Origin: Chloroflexota bacterium
GTDB lineage: Bacteria > Chloroflexota > Limnocylindria > Limnocylindrales > CSP1-4
NCBI GenBank assembly: GCA_021813655.1
Contig: JAKAJU010000164.1
Coordinates: forward strand, 1-34,895
Direction of reading: 5' to 3'
DNA length: 34,895 bases
In this document: in pieces, positions 9,888 through 15,841 of the stretch
Layout of the letters: every line of letters starts with the position of its first letter
Position numbering within the stretch: position 1 is the first letter of the stretch
Notes under the pieces: model-generated
The model's database searches: none
The model's input: the letters and a program-made list of their open reading frames with translations, nothing else
Told to the model about the DNA's origin: nothing
Program-made: the position numbers and the translations under genes

Positions 9888-12494
9888 TCAGTGGACCGTG
9901 GCCGGGCCCTCGAGCTCCTCGAACGTGATGCACCCGTCCACCGGGCACACGTAGCCGCACAGCCGGCAGCCGACGCACCAGTCGCCATCGATCGTCAGGT
10001 GCGAGGACCCGTTCGTGCGGTCGAGCCGGATCGCCTGGTGGGCGCCGTCATTGCACGCCGCGTAGCAGAGGTTGCAGTGGACGCACGTCTCCTCGTCGAT
10101 GTGCGCGAGGAGGCGGAAGGTCTGATCGAGGTCACCCCAGTCGCCCAGGGTCGGAAGGGCGCGCCCGACCAGCTCGGACGGGCTGTGGAGCCCCCTGGAC
10201 CGCAGGTACGTCGAGAGACCATCGACGAGATCGTCGATGATCCGGAACCCGAGGTGCATCACGCTCGTGCCGACCTGGACCGTGGTCGCTCCTACGAGCA
10301 TGAACTCCACGGCGTCGTGCCAGTCGGCGACCCCGCCGATCCCCGAGACAGGGATGCGGATCTCCGGGTCCGACGCGACCGCCGACACCATGTTGAGCGC
10401 GATCGGCTTGACCGCCGGCCCCGAGAACCCCCCGTGGCTGCCCCTGCCGCGGACGTCCGGGACGGGCGCCCACGTGTCGAGGTTCACGCCGATGAGCGAG
10501 CTCACTGTGTTGATGAGGGCGATACCGTGCGCGCCTCCCGCCCGGGCCGCGCGGGCGGGCGGGCGGATGTCGGCGACGTTGGGGGTGAGCTTCACGAGGA
10601 CCGGGATCCTCGACGCCTCCATCACCCATTCGGTGATCATCTGGACGTACTCGGGGACCTGGCCCACGGCCGCGCCCATCCCGCGCTCGCTCATGCCGTG
10701 CGGGCATCCGAAGTTGAGTTCGATGCCGTCCGCGCCGGTGTCGTTGACCTTCCGGACGATCTCGTGCCAGACCTCGGGCTTCGATTCGACCATCAGCGAG
10801 ACGACGACGGCGTGCGACGGATACCGCCGCTTGATGTCGGCGATCTCAGCCAGGTTCACCTCGGTGGGGCGGTCGCTGATGAGCTCGATGTTCGAGAGGC
10901 CGACGATGCGGCGGCCGTCCACCTCGAGCGAGCCGAGCCGGGATGTCACGTTCCGGATCGGGTCGCCGATCGTCTTCCAGACGACGCCGCCCCAGCCCGC
11001 GTCGAACGCCCGGGCGACCATCTCGCCGGTGTTCGAGATCGGACAGCTCGCGAGCCAGAACGGGTTGGGGCCGCGGATGCCGGCCATGTCGGTGAACAGG
11101 TCCACCCCCGGGAGCGTCGCATCGGTCGGCCGCGCGGGGACGATGCGCGCGCCGCCGAGGCCGAGCGAGTCGACGATCGAGCGCGCGGCGAGCTTCCCGG
11201 CCTGCACCGCGTTGACGACCTCGGCGCCGCCGTTCGCGACGTCGCCGATCGCCCAGACCTTGGCGTTGCCGGTCCGGCCGGTGGCACGGTCGGTGGGCAC
11301 GACGCCGTCGCGCAGCGGGAGGCCGAGCGCGGCGGCGAGCTCGGCCAGGCCCGCCGGTCCGCCCTGCCCGACGGCCCGCACGACGGTGTCCAGCTCGACC
11401 TCGAAGGCCGAGCCCTCGAGCGGCTCCGGCCGCCGACGCCCGGATGCGTCGGGCTCGCCGAGCGCCATCGACGTGAAGACCGCGCTCGACACGTGGCCGT
11501 CGCCACGGATCTCCACGGGCGCCGTCAGCCAGCGGATCGAGACACCGAGCGAGCGCGCGAGCTCGATCGCGTGCGGGTACGCGGGGGTCTCCACGGGGCC
11601 CCGCCGGTAGAAGAGGACGACCTGCTCAGCGCCGAGGCGGACGGCCGCGGCGGCCGCATCGAATGCCGTGCTCCCACCGCCGATGACGCCGACGCGACGA
11701 CCGATCGGGGCGACGCCATCCGCGGCGTCCCATCCGTCGATGGCGTGGCCGATGAGATCGAGCGCGTCGACGACGCCCGGGAGATCCTCGCCGGGGATCC
11801 CGAGCGCCTTCGCCCGGCCGAGCCCGACGGCGAGAACGACCGCGTCGTGCTGCGCGAGGAGCGCGGTCGGGTCCACGTCGCGACCCACCGCTGCCCCGAG
11901 GACGAATCGCGCGCCGGCGCGCTCCACCTCGCGGACATCGAGCGCGACCGTCTCGCGCGGCAACCGCCAGGGCACGATCCCGTGGTCCGCGAGGCCGCCG
12001 GCGCGCTCGGCCGCGTCGTAGACCGTCACCGCGACGCCGGCCCTGCGCAGCTCCGCGGCGCACGCGAGCCCGGCAGGGCCGGCGCCCACGATCGCCACGG
12101 AGACGGGCACCTCCTCGCCGGGTGTGAAGAACCGCCCGCCCGACGCCGCGTACCGCTCGACCGCGTAGCGCTGCAGTCGCCCGATCTCGATCGGATGGTC
12201 CATCGCACCGCGGACGCACGACCCCTCGCACAGGCGCTCGACCGGGCACGCGGCACCGCAGGTGGCAGCGAGAGGGTTGGCGGCGAGGATCGTCCGCGCC
12301 GCGCCGTCGACGTTTCCCGTCGAGATCTTCCGGATGAAACCCGGCACGTCGATCCCGGTCGGGCAGGCGTGCGTGCACGGGGCGTCGAAGCAGTAGAGGC
12401 ACCGCTCCGCTTCGGTCCGTGCAGCGGCCGCCGACAGCGGCTGCATCGGGAAGAACGAGTCGGGCCCCCGCCCGACCGACGTCTCGACGGTCAT
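9888..12494 (-). CDS. preT-preA: Dihydropyrimidine dehydrogenase, PreT-PreA fused in one chain
   Basis: 868-residue enzyme reducing uracil or thymine to the 5,6-dihydro form (reversible). Domains in order: N-terminal double Fe-S motif (Cys32, 35, 40, 44; Cys79, 83, 89, 93); FAD site GAGPAG (137-142) and NADPH site GGGSTA near 270; from about residue 464 an FMN barrel (PNPFWLASCP, LNFGCPHGMSERGMGAAVGQ, VKLTPNVADI, GFSGPAVKPIALNMV, SGIGG); and two C-terminal 4Fe-4S motifs (CVHCNLCYAAC from about 803, CVGCRLCGYVCP from about 844). E. coli splits this into PreT and PreA; the mammalian enzyme has the same single-chain order. In the mammalian enzyme the residue before GQ is the catalytic Cys; here it is Val. 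ATG 12494 has GAGG 8 nt upstream. Downstream pathway genes are not nearby. Confidence 0.93.
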   Translation of the reverse strand: MTVETSVGRGPDSFFPMQPLSAAAARTEAERCLYCFDAPCTHACPTGIDVPGFIRKISTGNVDGAARTILAANPLAATCGAACPVERLCEGSCVRGAMDHPIEIGRLQRYAVERYAASGGRFFTPGEEVPVSVAIVGAGPAGLACAAELRRAGVAVTVYDAAERAGGLADHGIVPWRLPRETVALDVREVERAGARFVLGAAVGRDVDPTALLAQHDAVVLAVGLGRAKALGIPGEDLPGVVDALDLIGHAIDGWDAADGVAPIGRRVGVIGGGSTAFDAAAAAVRLGAEQVVLFYRRGPVETPAYPHAIELARSLGVSIRWLTAPVEIRGDGHVSSAVFTSMALGEPDASGRRRPEPLEGSAFEVELDTVVRAVGQGGPAGLAELAAALGLPLRDGVVPTDRATGRTGNAKVWAIGDVANGGAEVVNAVQAGKLAARSIVDSLGLGGARIVPARPTDATLPGVDLFTDMAGIRGPNPFWLASCPISNTGEMVARAFDAGWGGVVWKTIGDPIRNVTSRLGSLEVDGRRIVGLSNIELISDRPTEVNLAEIADIKRRYPSHAVVVSLMVESKPEVWHEIVRKVNDTGADGIELNFGCPHGMSERGMGAAVGQVPEYVQMITEWVMEASRIPVLVKLTPNVADIRPPARAARAGGAHGIALINTVSSLIGVNLDTWAPVPDVRGRGSHGGFSGPAVKPIALNMVSAVASDPEIRIPVSGIGGVADWHDAVEFMLVGATTVQVGTSVMHLGFRIIDDLVDGLSTYLRSRGLHSPSELVGRALPTLGDWGDLDQTFRLLAHIDEETCVHCNLCYAACNDGAHQAIRLDRTNGSSHLTIDGDWCVGCRLCGYVCPVDGCITFEELEGPATVH

Positions 12495-12712: not shown

Positions 12713-13891
12713 CTACTCCTCTGCGGTCGTCACGGTGAGCCTGCTCGCACCGCCCTCGACCTCGATCTCGTACCGCGACGCGGCGGCCTCGGCGCCCTCG
12801 GAGGCGAGCACGACGTTCCCGACGCCGGTGACCCTCTGGCCGTCGAGCGTGACCCGCGATGCGCCACCGCGAAGCCGGAGCCGGGCCGCGGACCCGGCCG
12901 GCCGGACGAGCGCGAGGTCGCTCATCCCTCCCGTGACCCTCACGACGACCAGGCCCTGCGGCTCCGGCAGGCGGAGAGAGATGCGACTCGCGCCGCCGGT
13001 GATCAGGAACGAGGCTAGGCGGACGGCCCGCAGGTCGCCATCGAGCGTGGATGCGCCACCGCGGAGCTCGATGTCCCATGGGATCGCGCCGTTGAGCACG
13101 ATCCTCGCGCGGTCCCGCCGCCAGTGCGCCGAGATCTCGAGCTTCGAGTCGGCGATCCGCGCTCGCCAGTCGAGCCACGAGAACCGGCCGTAGTGGATCG
13201 TGACGACCCCGGCCCGGGCGCGGACGCGCGGCGTCGCGCCCGCGAACGTCGCCCTCACGAGGTCGCCGAGCATCGGGTCGCCGCGGAGATCGACGGCGGG
13301 TGCGGCCGAGGTGAAGACGAGGCGCCCGCGATCCGCCCCGGCGACGGGTGCGACGAACGACCCGGCGACATCCTCGGTCCCGTCCTCGCCCGCGCCGGGA
13401 CCCCGGCGAAGTCGCGCCGTCTCCGATCGCGTGACCGAGAGGGTCGTCTCGAGGTACCCGCGGATGGTCTCGAGCTGGGCGCCGTCGTACCGCGCGATCG
13501 CATCATCGATCGCGCGCGCGAGGGCGTCGAAGTGCGCTGTCGCGGCGGCCACCCGCTCCCCGACGGGATCGACGAGCACCCGGCGGCGATCTGCCGGATC
13601 GGCGGTCCGCCGCACGAAGCCGGCCTGCTCGAGCCTGTCGAGCATCCGCGTCGCGGCGCCGGACGTGAGCCCGGTCGCGGCCGCGAGCTCACCCGCCGAC
13701 AGGCGGCCGGCCTCCACGAGGATCTCGAGACACTCCACGTCCGTCGAGGCTAGGCCGATGCGATCCGCGACCGCCTGCGTGAAGAGCGCCGCGTGCACCC
13801 CGAGCCTGCGTGTCGCCGCCAGGACGCCCGCCGTCGGGCTCGCACCCGTCCCGGCCGGGTCCGTGGCGCCACCCGTCTCCGTCGTTGACAT
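12713..13891 (-). CDS. MarR-family regulator fused to a C-terminal GGAS-repeat (beta-solenoid-like) domain
   Basis: 392 residues, more than twice a normal MarR protein (about 150). Residues 25-155 form the MarR winged helix: the LSAGELAAATGLTSGAATRMLDRLEQAGFV recognition region followed by the wing RRTADPADRRRVLV. After an acidic linker (165-180), residues 185-392 form a beta-rich domain with the motif GGAS or GGMS at 278, 299, 321, 342 and 380, spaced 21, 22, 21 and 38 residues. That period suggests a short solenoid such as DUF4097-like or adhesin-head domains. It presumably represses its own gene and the divergent ABC exporter; the extra domain may sense or oligomerise, which is inference. 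ATG 13891; a perfect TATAAT lies at 13936-13931. No signal peptide or membrane segment is seen. Confidence 0.85.
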   Translation of the reverse strand: MSTTETGGATDPAGTGASPTAGVLAATRRLGVHAALFTQAVADRIGLASTDVECLEILVEAGRLSAGELAAATGLTSGAATRMLDRLEQAGFVRRTADPADRRRVLVDPVGERVAAATAHFDALARAIDDAIARYDGAQLETIRGYLETTLSVTRSETARLRRGPGAGEDGTEDVAGSFVAPVAGADRGRLVFTSAAPAVDLRGDPMLGDLVRATFAGATPRVRARAGVVTIHYGRFSWLDWRARIADSKLEISAHWRRDRARIVLNGAIPWDIELRGGASTLDGDLRAVRLASFLITGGASRISLRLPEPQGLVVVRVTGGMSDLALVRPAGSAARLRLRGGASRVTLDGQRVTGVGNVVLASEGAEAAASRYEIEVEGGASRLTVTTAEE

Positions 13892-13909: not shown

Positions 13910-13954
13910 TTGCCTGCACAGCGCAGAGACATTATAGCGCAAAGGACAAGCGCG
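13910..13954. promoter_or_regulatory. Overlapping divergent promoters and AGCGC repeats between MarR-fusion gene and ABC operon
   Basis: Minus strand: TATAAT at 13936-13931, about 40 nt before the regulator start. Plus strand: TTGCCT (13910) - 17 bp - TATAGC (13933), facing the ABC genes. AGCGCA at 13920 and 13936 and AGCGCG at 13949 are direct repeats overlapping both promoters. A regulator bound here would block both directions. Inferred from sequence only. Confidence 0.45.
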
Positions 13955-14104
13955 GAGACGGCCTCCCGTTCGCCCCCGGCCGCGTGGCCGGCGACCACGC
14001 GAGGGCCTGCCGGATCCCCTGAGCGCGGGGGGGTGCGATGAGACACCGGAGACCGTCCTGCGCGGGCGAGGCCCGCGCGACACAGCACGATCGGGAGGCT
14101 TGCG

Positions 14105-15064
14105 ATGACTGAGCTGATGGTGGAGACGCACGGTCTGAGGCGGACCTTCAAGGGTCGCGGCAAGACCGTGGAGGCCGTGCGCGGAGTGGACCTCCGCGTC
14201 GCGCCCGGGGAGATCTTCGGGTTCCTCGGGCCGAACGGCGCGGGCAAGACCACGACGCTGCGGATGCTCGCGACGCTCATCGAGCCGACGGAGGGCACCG
14301 CGCTCGTCGCGGGAGCCGATCTTCGGCGCGAGCCCGGCAGGGTCCGGGAGCGGATCGGATACGTCGCCCAGGGCGGCGGGTCCGACCCCGGCATGACCGG
14401 TCGCGGCGAGCTCGTCATCCAGGGCCGGCTCTTCGGCCTCGCCCGGAAGGAGGCCGAGCGCCGCGCCGTGGAGGTCCTCGAGGCCCTCGACCTCGTCGAG
14501 GCGGCCGACCGGACGGTGGGCACCTACTCGGGCGGGATGCGCCGCCGGCTCGACATCGGGATCGGGATGATCCACCGACCTCGCCTCCTCTTCCTCGACG
14601 AGCCGACCACCGGCCTCGACCCGCAGGCGCGCGCGCACCTGTGGGACGAGATCCGCCGCCTCCGCGACGGCGGAGCGACGATCTTCCTGACGACGCACTA
14701 CCTCGAGGAGGCGGACGCGCTCTGCGACAGCCTCGCGATCATCGACCACGGCCTGATCGTGGCCGAGGGGACGCCGATCGAGCTGAAGCGCGCGATCGCC
14801 GGCGACGTCGTGACGCTCGGGCTCAACGGCTCGACCGACGGCGCGCTGAACCTGCTCCGGTCGGCCCCGCGGGTGCGGGAGGCGGAGTTGTCCGACGGGA
14901 CGGTCCGCCTGTACGTGGAGGACGGCGATCTCGCGCTCCCCGAGCTGCTGCGGCTGCTCGACGGCGCCGGGATGCCACCGTCGTCGATCTCGCTGCACCG
15001 CCCCAGCCTCGACGACGTCTTCCTCCGTCAGACCGGTCGCTCGCTCCGCGACGAAGCAGCCTAG
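14105..15064 (+). CDS. ABC transporter ATP-binding protein (DrrA/CcmA-type drug exporter)
   Basis: 319-residue ATPase. Walker A GPNGAGKTT (42-50), signature YSGGMRRRL (about 141), Walker B RLLFLDEPTTGLD (about 160-172), then the switch His in LTTHYLEEADAL. The C-terminal extension with LRLLDGAGMPPSSISLHRPSLDDVFL is typical of daunorubicin-resistance DrrA proteins, which energise export of hydrophobic compounds. The start ATG 14105 is preceded by GGGAGG about 7 nt upstream. The permease follows after 12 bp. Divergent from the MarR fusion, a common arrangement for efflux systems controlled by MarR proteins. The transported compound is unknown. Confidence 0.93.
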   Translation: MTELMVETHGLRRTFKGRGKTVEAVRGVDLRVAPGEIFGFLGPNGAGKTTTLRMLATLIEPTEGTALVAGADLRREPGRVRERIGYVAQGGGSDPGMTGRGELVIQGRLFGLARKEAERRAVEVLEALDLVEAADRTVGTYSGGMRRRLDIGIGMIHRPRLLFLDEPTTGLDPQARAHLWDEIRRLRDGGATIFLTTHYLEEADALCDSLAIIDHGLIVAEGTPIELKRAIAGDVVTLGLNGSTDGALNLLRSAPRVREAELSDGTVRLYVEDGDLALPELLRLLDGAGMPPSSISLHRPSLDDVFLRQTGRSLRDEAA

Positions 15065-15076
15065 GAGGCACCCGCA

Positions 15077-15841
15077 ATGAAGCTCATCCGCGACACGTGG
15101 CTCATCTACGAGCGCTCGATGTACCTGACCCTCCACAACCCGGTCTGGGTCGTTCTCGGGCTCGGCCAGCCGCTCGTCTTGCTCCTGTTCTTCGGGCCGA
15201 TCCTCAACAGCGTCGCCGTCAGCTCGGCCGGCTTCCCGCCGGGAGGGGCGTTCAACGTCTTCGTGCCGGGGCTCCTCATCCAGATCGCCCTGTTCGGGGC
15301 GGCCTTCGTCGGGTTCGGTCTCGTCGCCGAGCTGCGGTACGGGGTCGTGGAGCGGATGCGGGTGACCCCGCTGAGCCGCGCCGCGATGCTCCTCGGTCGG
15401 TCGCTCCGGGACGTCGTCATCCTCGTCGCGCAGGGCCTCCTCCTCGTCCTCGTCGCGCTGCCGTTCGGCCTCCGGATCGACCCGGCCGGGTTCGTCGTCT
15501 CCCTCGGGCTCCTCGCCCTCGTCGGCCTGGTGATGGCGCCGATCTCGTACTCCCTCGCGCTGATGCTCAAGAGCGAGGACGCACTCGCACCCCTCCTCAA
15601 CGGGATCTCGCTCCCGCTCCTCCTGCTGTCGGGGATCCTCCTGCCGATGGCGCTGGCACCCGACTGGCTGCAGGCGCTCGCGAAGCTCGACCCGCTCAGC
15701 TACGCCGTGACGGCGATCCGGGCACTGTTCAACGGTCGGTTCGCGGACCCGGCCGTGGCGACGGGCGTCGGCCTCATGGCCGTGCTCGCGGCCCTCGCGA
15801 TCGTCGCGGGCCGGCGCGCCTTCGCGCGCGCGGCCGCGTAG
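15077..15841 (+). CDS. ABC-2 type permease (DrrB-like)
   Basis: 254-residue inner-membrane protein, partner of the preceding ATPase. About six hydrophobic segments: PVWVVLGLGQPLVLLLFFGP, the LLIQIALFGAAFVGFGLV stretch, VVILVAQGLLLVLVALPFGL, LGLLALVGLVMAPISYSLAL, ISLPLLLLSGILLPM and a C-terminal one. The ABC-2 signature region around LSGILLPMALAPDWLQALAKLDPLSY is clear. The ATPase stop and this ATG are separated by a spacer with AGGAGG, a strong ribosome site. Last gene of the two-gene exporter operon; convergent with the LysR gene. Confidence 0.92.
   Translation: MKLIRDTWLIYERSMYLTLHNPVWVVLGLGQPLVLLLFFGPILNSVAVSSAGFPPGGAFNVFVPGLLIQIALFGAAFVGFGLVAELRYGVVERMRVTPLSRAAMLLGRSLRDVVILVAQGLLLVLVALPFGLRIDPAGFVVSLGLLALVGLVMAPISYSLALMLKSEDALAPLLNGISLPLLLLSGILLPMALAPDWLQALAKLDPLSYAVTAIRALFNGRFADPAVATGVGLMAVLAALAIVAGRRAFARAAA

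Follow-up and report, generated by a model that had tools for sequence, protein, structure and literature searches.

Toastrack domains have so far been described mainly in membrane-stress proteins. The toastrack proteins of the PSP/Lia systems include LiaF, LiaG and VraT and the families DUF4097, DUF2154 and DUF2807 (PMC11237479). A published survey treats toastracks as intracellular modules on which proteins dock, and it raises the possibility that such docking is relayed by HTH domains, either fused or associated; the main text of that work names neither MarR nor TetR (PMC11237479). Toastracks are common in envelope-stress systems, and their place in multi-protein membrane complexes is part of the reason why their signal has been hard to pin down.

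The locus described here carries the same domain as the PSP/Lia toastracks, as judged by profile matches to 4QRK, the toastrack structure in the literature, and to the LiaF-TM toastracks of its own class, and the domain is likewise C-terminal, intracellular and linked to regulators and transporters. Unlike in those systems, it is fused to a soluble MarR DNA-binding domain and has no membrane segment. A second likeness is to the LltR operon of Listeria monocytogenes (PadR - DUF1700 - DUF4097), which also holds a repressor and a toastrack-type protein in one regulated group and whose assumed response is to envelope-active compounds; there, however, the proteins are separate, the regulator is PadR rather than MarR, and nothing is fused (PMC6624303). 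With the MarR/SlyA one-component regulators, the locus shares a winged HTH and a divergent exporter, and the palindrome upstream of its own gene is a candidate for the operator found in that family, whereas classical members of that family are about 140-180 aa long and lack a C-terminal beta-helix.

No description of MarR- or TetR-toastrack fusions was found in a literature search that covered mainly freely searchable papers. A first-pass annotation of this DNA had stated that no well-described MarR protein is known to carry such an extension, and neither that search nor Pfam supplied one. Given its recurrence in two phyla, and its constant divergence from a drug-exporter operon in the window's class, the MarR-toastrack protein looks like a genuine type of single-chain sensor for stress or drugs that had not been described before. 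Its components are known, and their combination had been anticipated in broad outline.

A MarR regulator with a C-terminal toastrack

The window, by which we mean the whole stretch of DNA that was analyzed (34,895 nucleotides of a Chloroflexota contig), encodes the fusion as follows.

12713..13891, minus strand: MarR-toastrack fusion gene, 392 aa, ATG start (ORF list and translation; fusion kept in relatives)
13427..13819, minus strand: MarR domain with flanking helices, residues about 25-155 (phmmer matches to MarR structures)
13577..13747, minus strand: MarR winged-helix core, residues 49-105, with wing motif DPADRRRV (Pfam PF01047, E 7.8e-16)
12716..13360, minus strand: Toastrack domain, residues 178-392 (4qrk_A profile match; hhalign; Foldseek of a low-confidence model)
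12743..13060, minus strand: five GGAS/GGMS turn motifs, residues 278-383 (shuffle test; GG invariance)

The 392-aa reading frame and its MarR domain are as the first-pass annotation had claimed. PF01047 matches at 58.2 bits against a cut-off of 24.6 (E 8e-16), phmmer matches include the MarR structure 2nnn over residues 33-148, and the D-x-R-R signature of the wing is present, with D98, D101 and R102-R104 invariant among 20 fusions. The frame is not an artefact, since the fusion is conserved across the phylum. The highest 19-residue Kyte-Doolittle average in the protein is 1.13; with neither a hydrophobic segment on this scale nor a Pfam transmembrane domain, it is not a LiaF-TM/PspC fusion. 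An extracellular adhesin-type role was rejected because the protein has neither a signal nor a membrane segment.

In the window protein, no Pfam model scores above its cut-off on the C-terminal part. The Pfam models LiaF-like_C and DUF4097 reach their cut-offs in no member of the fusion family, with LiaF-like_C at only 0.28 in one member. The C-terminal domains of the LiaF-TM toastracks of the window's class miss the cut-offs as well, so the Pfam toastrack models are insensitive here. A profile of 20 homologous tails (A2) matched 4qrk_A as its sole PDB entry (E 1.2e-15), an entry already matched by the single protein over residues 253-386 (1.8e-4). When A2 was aligned by hhalign to the LiaF-TM toastracks of the class, in which LiaF-type transmembrane segments were confirmed, the match probability was 99.7% (1e-26, 193 columns). 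A single-sequence model of the window protein shows mainly beta structure around the repeats, at low confidence (pLDDT 53, pTM 0.54), and a Foldseek search with this weak model ranked 4qrk first (E 0.02). Five toastrack residues (F216, P221, G228, P271 and W272) are invariant phylum-wide.

From these profile matches we assign the tail, with high confidence, to the Toastrack domain rather than to a new fold, and it would accordingly be predicted to form a right-handed single-stranded beta-helix. The beta-rich, solenoid-like domain proposed in the first-pass annotation is therefore there as a C-terminal domain of beta-solenoid type, although as a recognizable Toastrack and not as a new solenoid. 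The suggestion that it binds a surface or polymer is unlikely, because the protein has no hydrophobic segment and toastracks have been described as intracellular docking modules for proteins (PMC11237479). Two other identities were discarded: (i) the Pfam family Ceramidse_alk_C, which matched 1 of 20 members at E 0.003, far below cut-off, and (ii) a disordered tail, which is ruled out by the conservation, the 4QRK homology and the strand pattern.

The GG[AM]S motifs start at residues 278, 299, 321, 342 and 380, with spacings of 21, 22, 21 and 38. In composition shuffles of the 215-residue tail, the mean was 0.03 motifs and none of 200,000 shuffles reached five. The GG pairs at 278-279 and 299-300 are invariant in the 20 fusions. 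A helical turn of about 21 residues would account for the first three spacings, and the repeats are most likely the turn glycines of the toastrack beta-helix. The near-constant 21-residue period claimed earlier thus holds for four copies, while the fifth is offset.

Distribution of the fusion and of related toastracks

The MarR-toastrack fusion is a conserved family found in two bacterial phyla. Tail matches occur in 69 of 177 genomes of the window's class; the best 20 of these, the window included, are all MarR-toastrack fusions, and further class matches include two TetR-toastrack fusions (L033, L036) and LiaF-TM toastracks. Across the phylum, 400 genomes gave 39 matches spanning both domains; these fall in 30 genomes, of which some hold two or three copies. 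Among 396 genomes of Actinomycetota, the phylum holding a Streptomyces record, five full-length fusions were present in three genomes and a contig-cut one in a fourth (G627, G616, G638 and G648 together). In the phylum to which a Clostridia record belongs, none of the 299 genomes searched gave a strong fusion match at the threshold applied, and the plasmid and viral collections yielded no relatives. A scan of the whole genome collection with the single protein returned MarR-domain relatives only, and four close MarR relatives (L001-L004) are of normal length and lack the tail. With the family recognized, genes in two phyla that would otherwise pass for plain MarR regulators can be named and come with a prediction.

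A tree of the toastrack modules groups MarR fusions, TetR fusions and stand-alone toastracks on a single branch (100/89) that excludes the LiaF-TM toastracks; the branching inside this group is mostly unresolved. The TetR-toastracks (L033, L036 and L061) are a second regulator family joined to the module. In L089 (1486-2757, minus strand), the module is fused to a TMEM175-type channel domain (PF06736, 8.8e-26). The DNA string TGTCAAG (xTG-TCA-AG) is kept at the first codons of fusions in both phyla (for example L074, L098 and L013), TTG starts included; its role could lie in translation, or it could belong to a binding site.

A drug-type ABC exporter faces the fusion gene

Upstream of the fusion, and divergent from it, the window carries two exporter genes.

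14105..15064, plus strand: ABC exporter ATPase, DrrA type (TIGR01188, 339.5 bits; PF00005, PF13732)
15077..15841, plus strand: ABC-2 type permease, DrrB-like (PF01061, 2e-27)

The divergent drug-type exporter that the first-pass annotation had proposed is confirmed. As in DrrAB-type ABC-2 exporters, the ATPase lies above the drrA cut-off of TIGR01188 (339.5 against 312.45 bits) and the permease has Pfam ABC2_membrane; unlike them, the permease falls below the drrB cut-off (TIGR01247, 97.2 against 223.05 bits). In a neighborhood survey, which the annotation had suggested, all 18 class loci that include a flank have an ABC ATPase divergent from the fusion, as does the window (19/19 informative). 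These loci cover at least two families, and the permease adjoins the ATPase wherever the contig reaches. Two other neighbors from the window were searched and are not conserved at the 18 class loci. In L052 and L059 the exporter facing the fusion belongs to a clearly different subfamily, indicating that the link between fusion and exporter was kept through a change of partner.

Of 20 fusions from other classes, 8 face an ABC ATPase in divergent orientation and the other 12 have no adjacent ABC exporter. By eye, neighbors of these other fusions include an MFS transporter (L083), glycosyltransferases (L074, L075) and beta-lactamase-like hydrolases (L081, L085, L087); detoxification genes of these kinds are often under MarR control. 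The TetR-toastrack L061 is also divergent from an ABC exporter. Stand-alone toastracks lie directly after the permease in DrrAB-like operons (L065, L066) and beside a DHA2-type MFS pump (L073), and in L079 an MFS pump, a MarR regulator and a toastrack are separate neighboring genes. These split and stand-alone versions are the best evidence that the MarR and toastrack parts serve one task. Together with the TetR fusions, they suggest a module that senses or docks in the control of exporters.

A conserved palindrome upstream of the fusion gene

Two candidate regulatory elements were located in the intergenic region.

13911..13929, no strand: putative operator, a degenerate copy of the 19-bp palindrome TCTCTGCGC-n-GCGCAGAGA (position conserved in relatives)
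13931..13936, minus strand: putative -10 element TATAAT of the fusion gene, abutting the operator (read from the sequence and the alignment consensus)

In the class, the palindrome lies at a fixed position about 30 nt upstream of the fusion start, with CTGC-C-G-GCAG invariant in the alignment. Its combined p is 1.5e-9 over 20 loci, whose relatedness means that they do not count as independent. In the window, 6 of 9 positions pair (p 0.97), and this degenerate copy would pass unnoticed alone. A promoter-like consensus, TTGCnn-N17-TATnAT, directly precedes the palindrome in the class alignment, and a strict sigma-70 scan found no promoter. Several fusions of the phylum outside the class have TATCTTAGT-n-ACTAAGATA-like sites at the same place. 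A regulon search of the window's own genome returned two sites in all, the second a weak and unconvincing match. In L077, several TTAGTnACTAA-like half-palindromes stand in tandem upstream of the fusion, which suggests more than one operator there.

Exporter control, which had been claimed from gene position, is now suggested by the divergence in all informative class loci and by the conserved palindrome. Because the palindrome is close to the regulator start and roughly 200 nt from that of the exporter, repression of the exporter would be less direct than autorepression.

Proposed mechanism and alternatives

The comparisons establish the fusion, the toastrack homology, the conserved divergence from exporters and the conserved upstream palindrome. 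From the anatomy of the locus and from precedent (knowledge of the MarR family, the docking proposal of PMC11237479 and the PadR-DUF1700-DUF4097 genes of Listeria), we infer DNA binding, the sense of regulation, the kind of signal and the part of the toastrack in its input. The protein is probably a soluble one-component repressor of itself and of the exporter, with the toastrack as its input module. A MarR-type dimer would bind the 19-bp palindrome across the -10/start region of the regulator gene. Bound there, between the two divergent transcription units, it would repress both that gene and the ABC drug exporter. The toastrack beta-helix would serve as signal input by docking a partner (a membrane-proximal protein, possibly the exporter) or by binding a toxic compound. 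This event would loosen the MarR dimer from the DNA, and the exporter would be made. Since a soluble repressor here adjoins its likely target and a short palindrome, toastrack input could be followed directly through release of the DNA or induction of the exporter.

MarR proteins sense ligands in the dimer interface and need no extra domain to do so. The toastrack could therefore be a structural or oligomerization module only, with drugs sensed in the usual dimer pocket, and the existence of close relatives of normal length without the tail (L001-L004) fits this. We consider it unlikely, since toastracks of the same class are also fused to TetR and TMEM175 and occur free in exporter operons, which suggests a function of the toastrack's own, and since the domain is under strong conservation at its phylum-wide invariant positions.

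As a special case of the input-module reading, the toastrack might bind the exporter or another membrane protein, such that the repressor is drawn off the DNA to the membrane upon export or envelope stress. Toastracks have been proposed as sub-membrane docking platforms (PMC11237479), and free toastracks are encoded directly after the DrrAB permease in two loci. Neighbors vary outside the class, however, so the partner is not always the adjacent exporter, and we regard this version as doubtful. It is equally a long shot that such docking, whether the exporter or some other protein near the membrane is the partner, physically withdraws MarR from DNA and makes the fusion a one-protein envelope or drug stress sensor, with one soluble chain in place of the three of LiaF-LiaS-LiaR.

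That the divergence is inherited synteny only and the regulator acts elsewhere is very improbable. Class members are all of shared descent, which would fit it. Against it, conservation does not extend to the remaining window neighbors that were searched, and in two loci the exporter belongs to another subfamily. ABC exporters are also faced by a TetR-toastrack and by some fusions from other classes, and the window's own genome holds just one other weak palindrome match.

Other features of the locus

In relatives of one genus (L013-L016, L018-L021, L024 and L025), an ORF of 26-27 residues (M-x-F-T-T-x-Q-F-D-I-A-G...) overlaps the start codon of the ATPase gene (ATGA) and resembles a translationally coupled leader peptide. 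At the same place, the window has an overlapping 24-codon ORF (14038-14112, plus strand) with no sequence similarity to it. The window also encodes, at 9888-12494 on the minus strand, an 868-aa single-chain protein resembling dihydropyrimidine dehydrogenase, which joins a Fer4_20/pyridine-redox half to a DHO_dh/4Fe-4S half; in bacteria these are often split as PreT and PreA.
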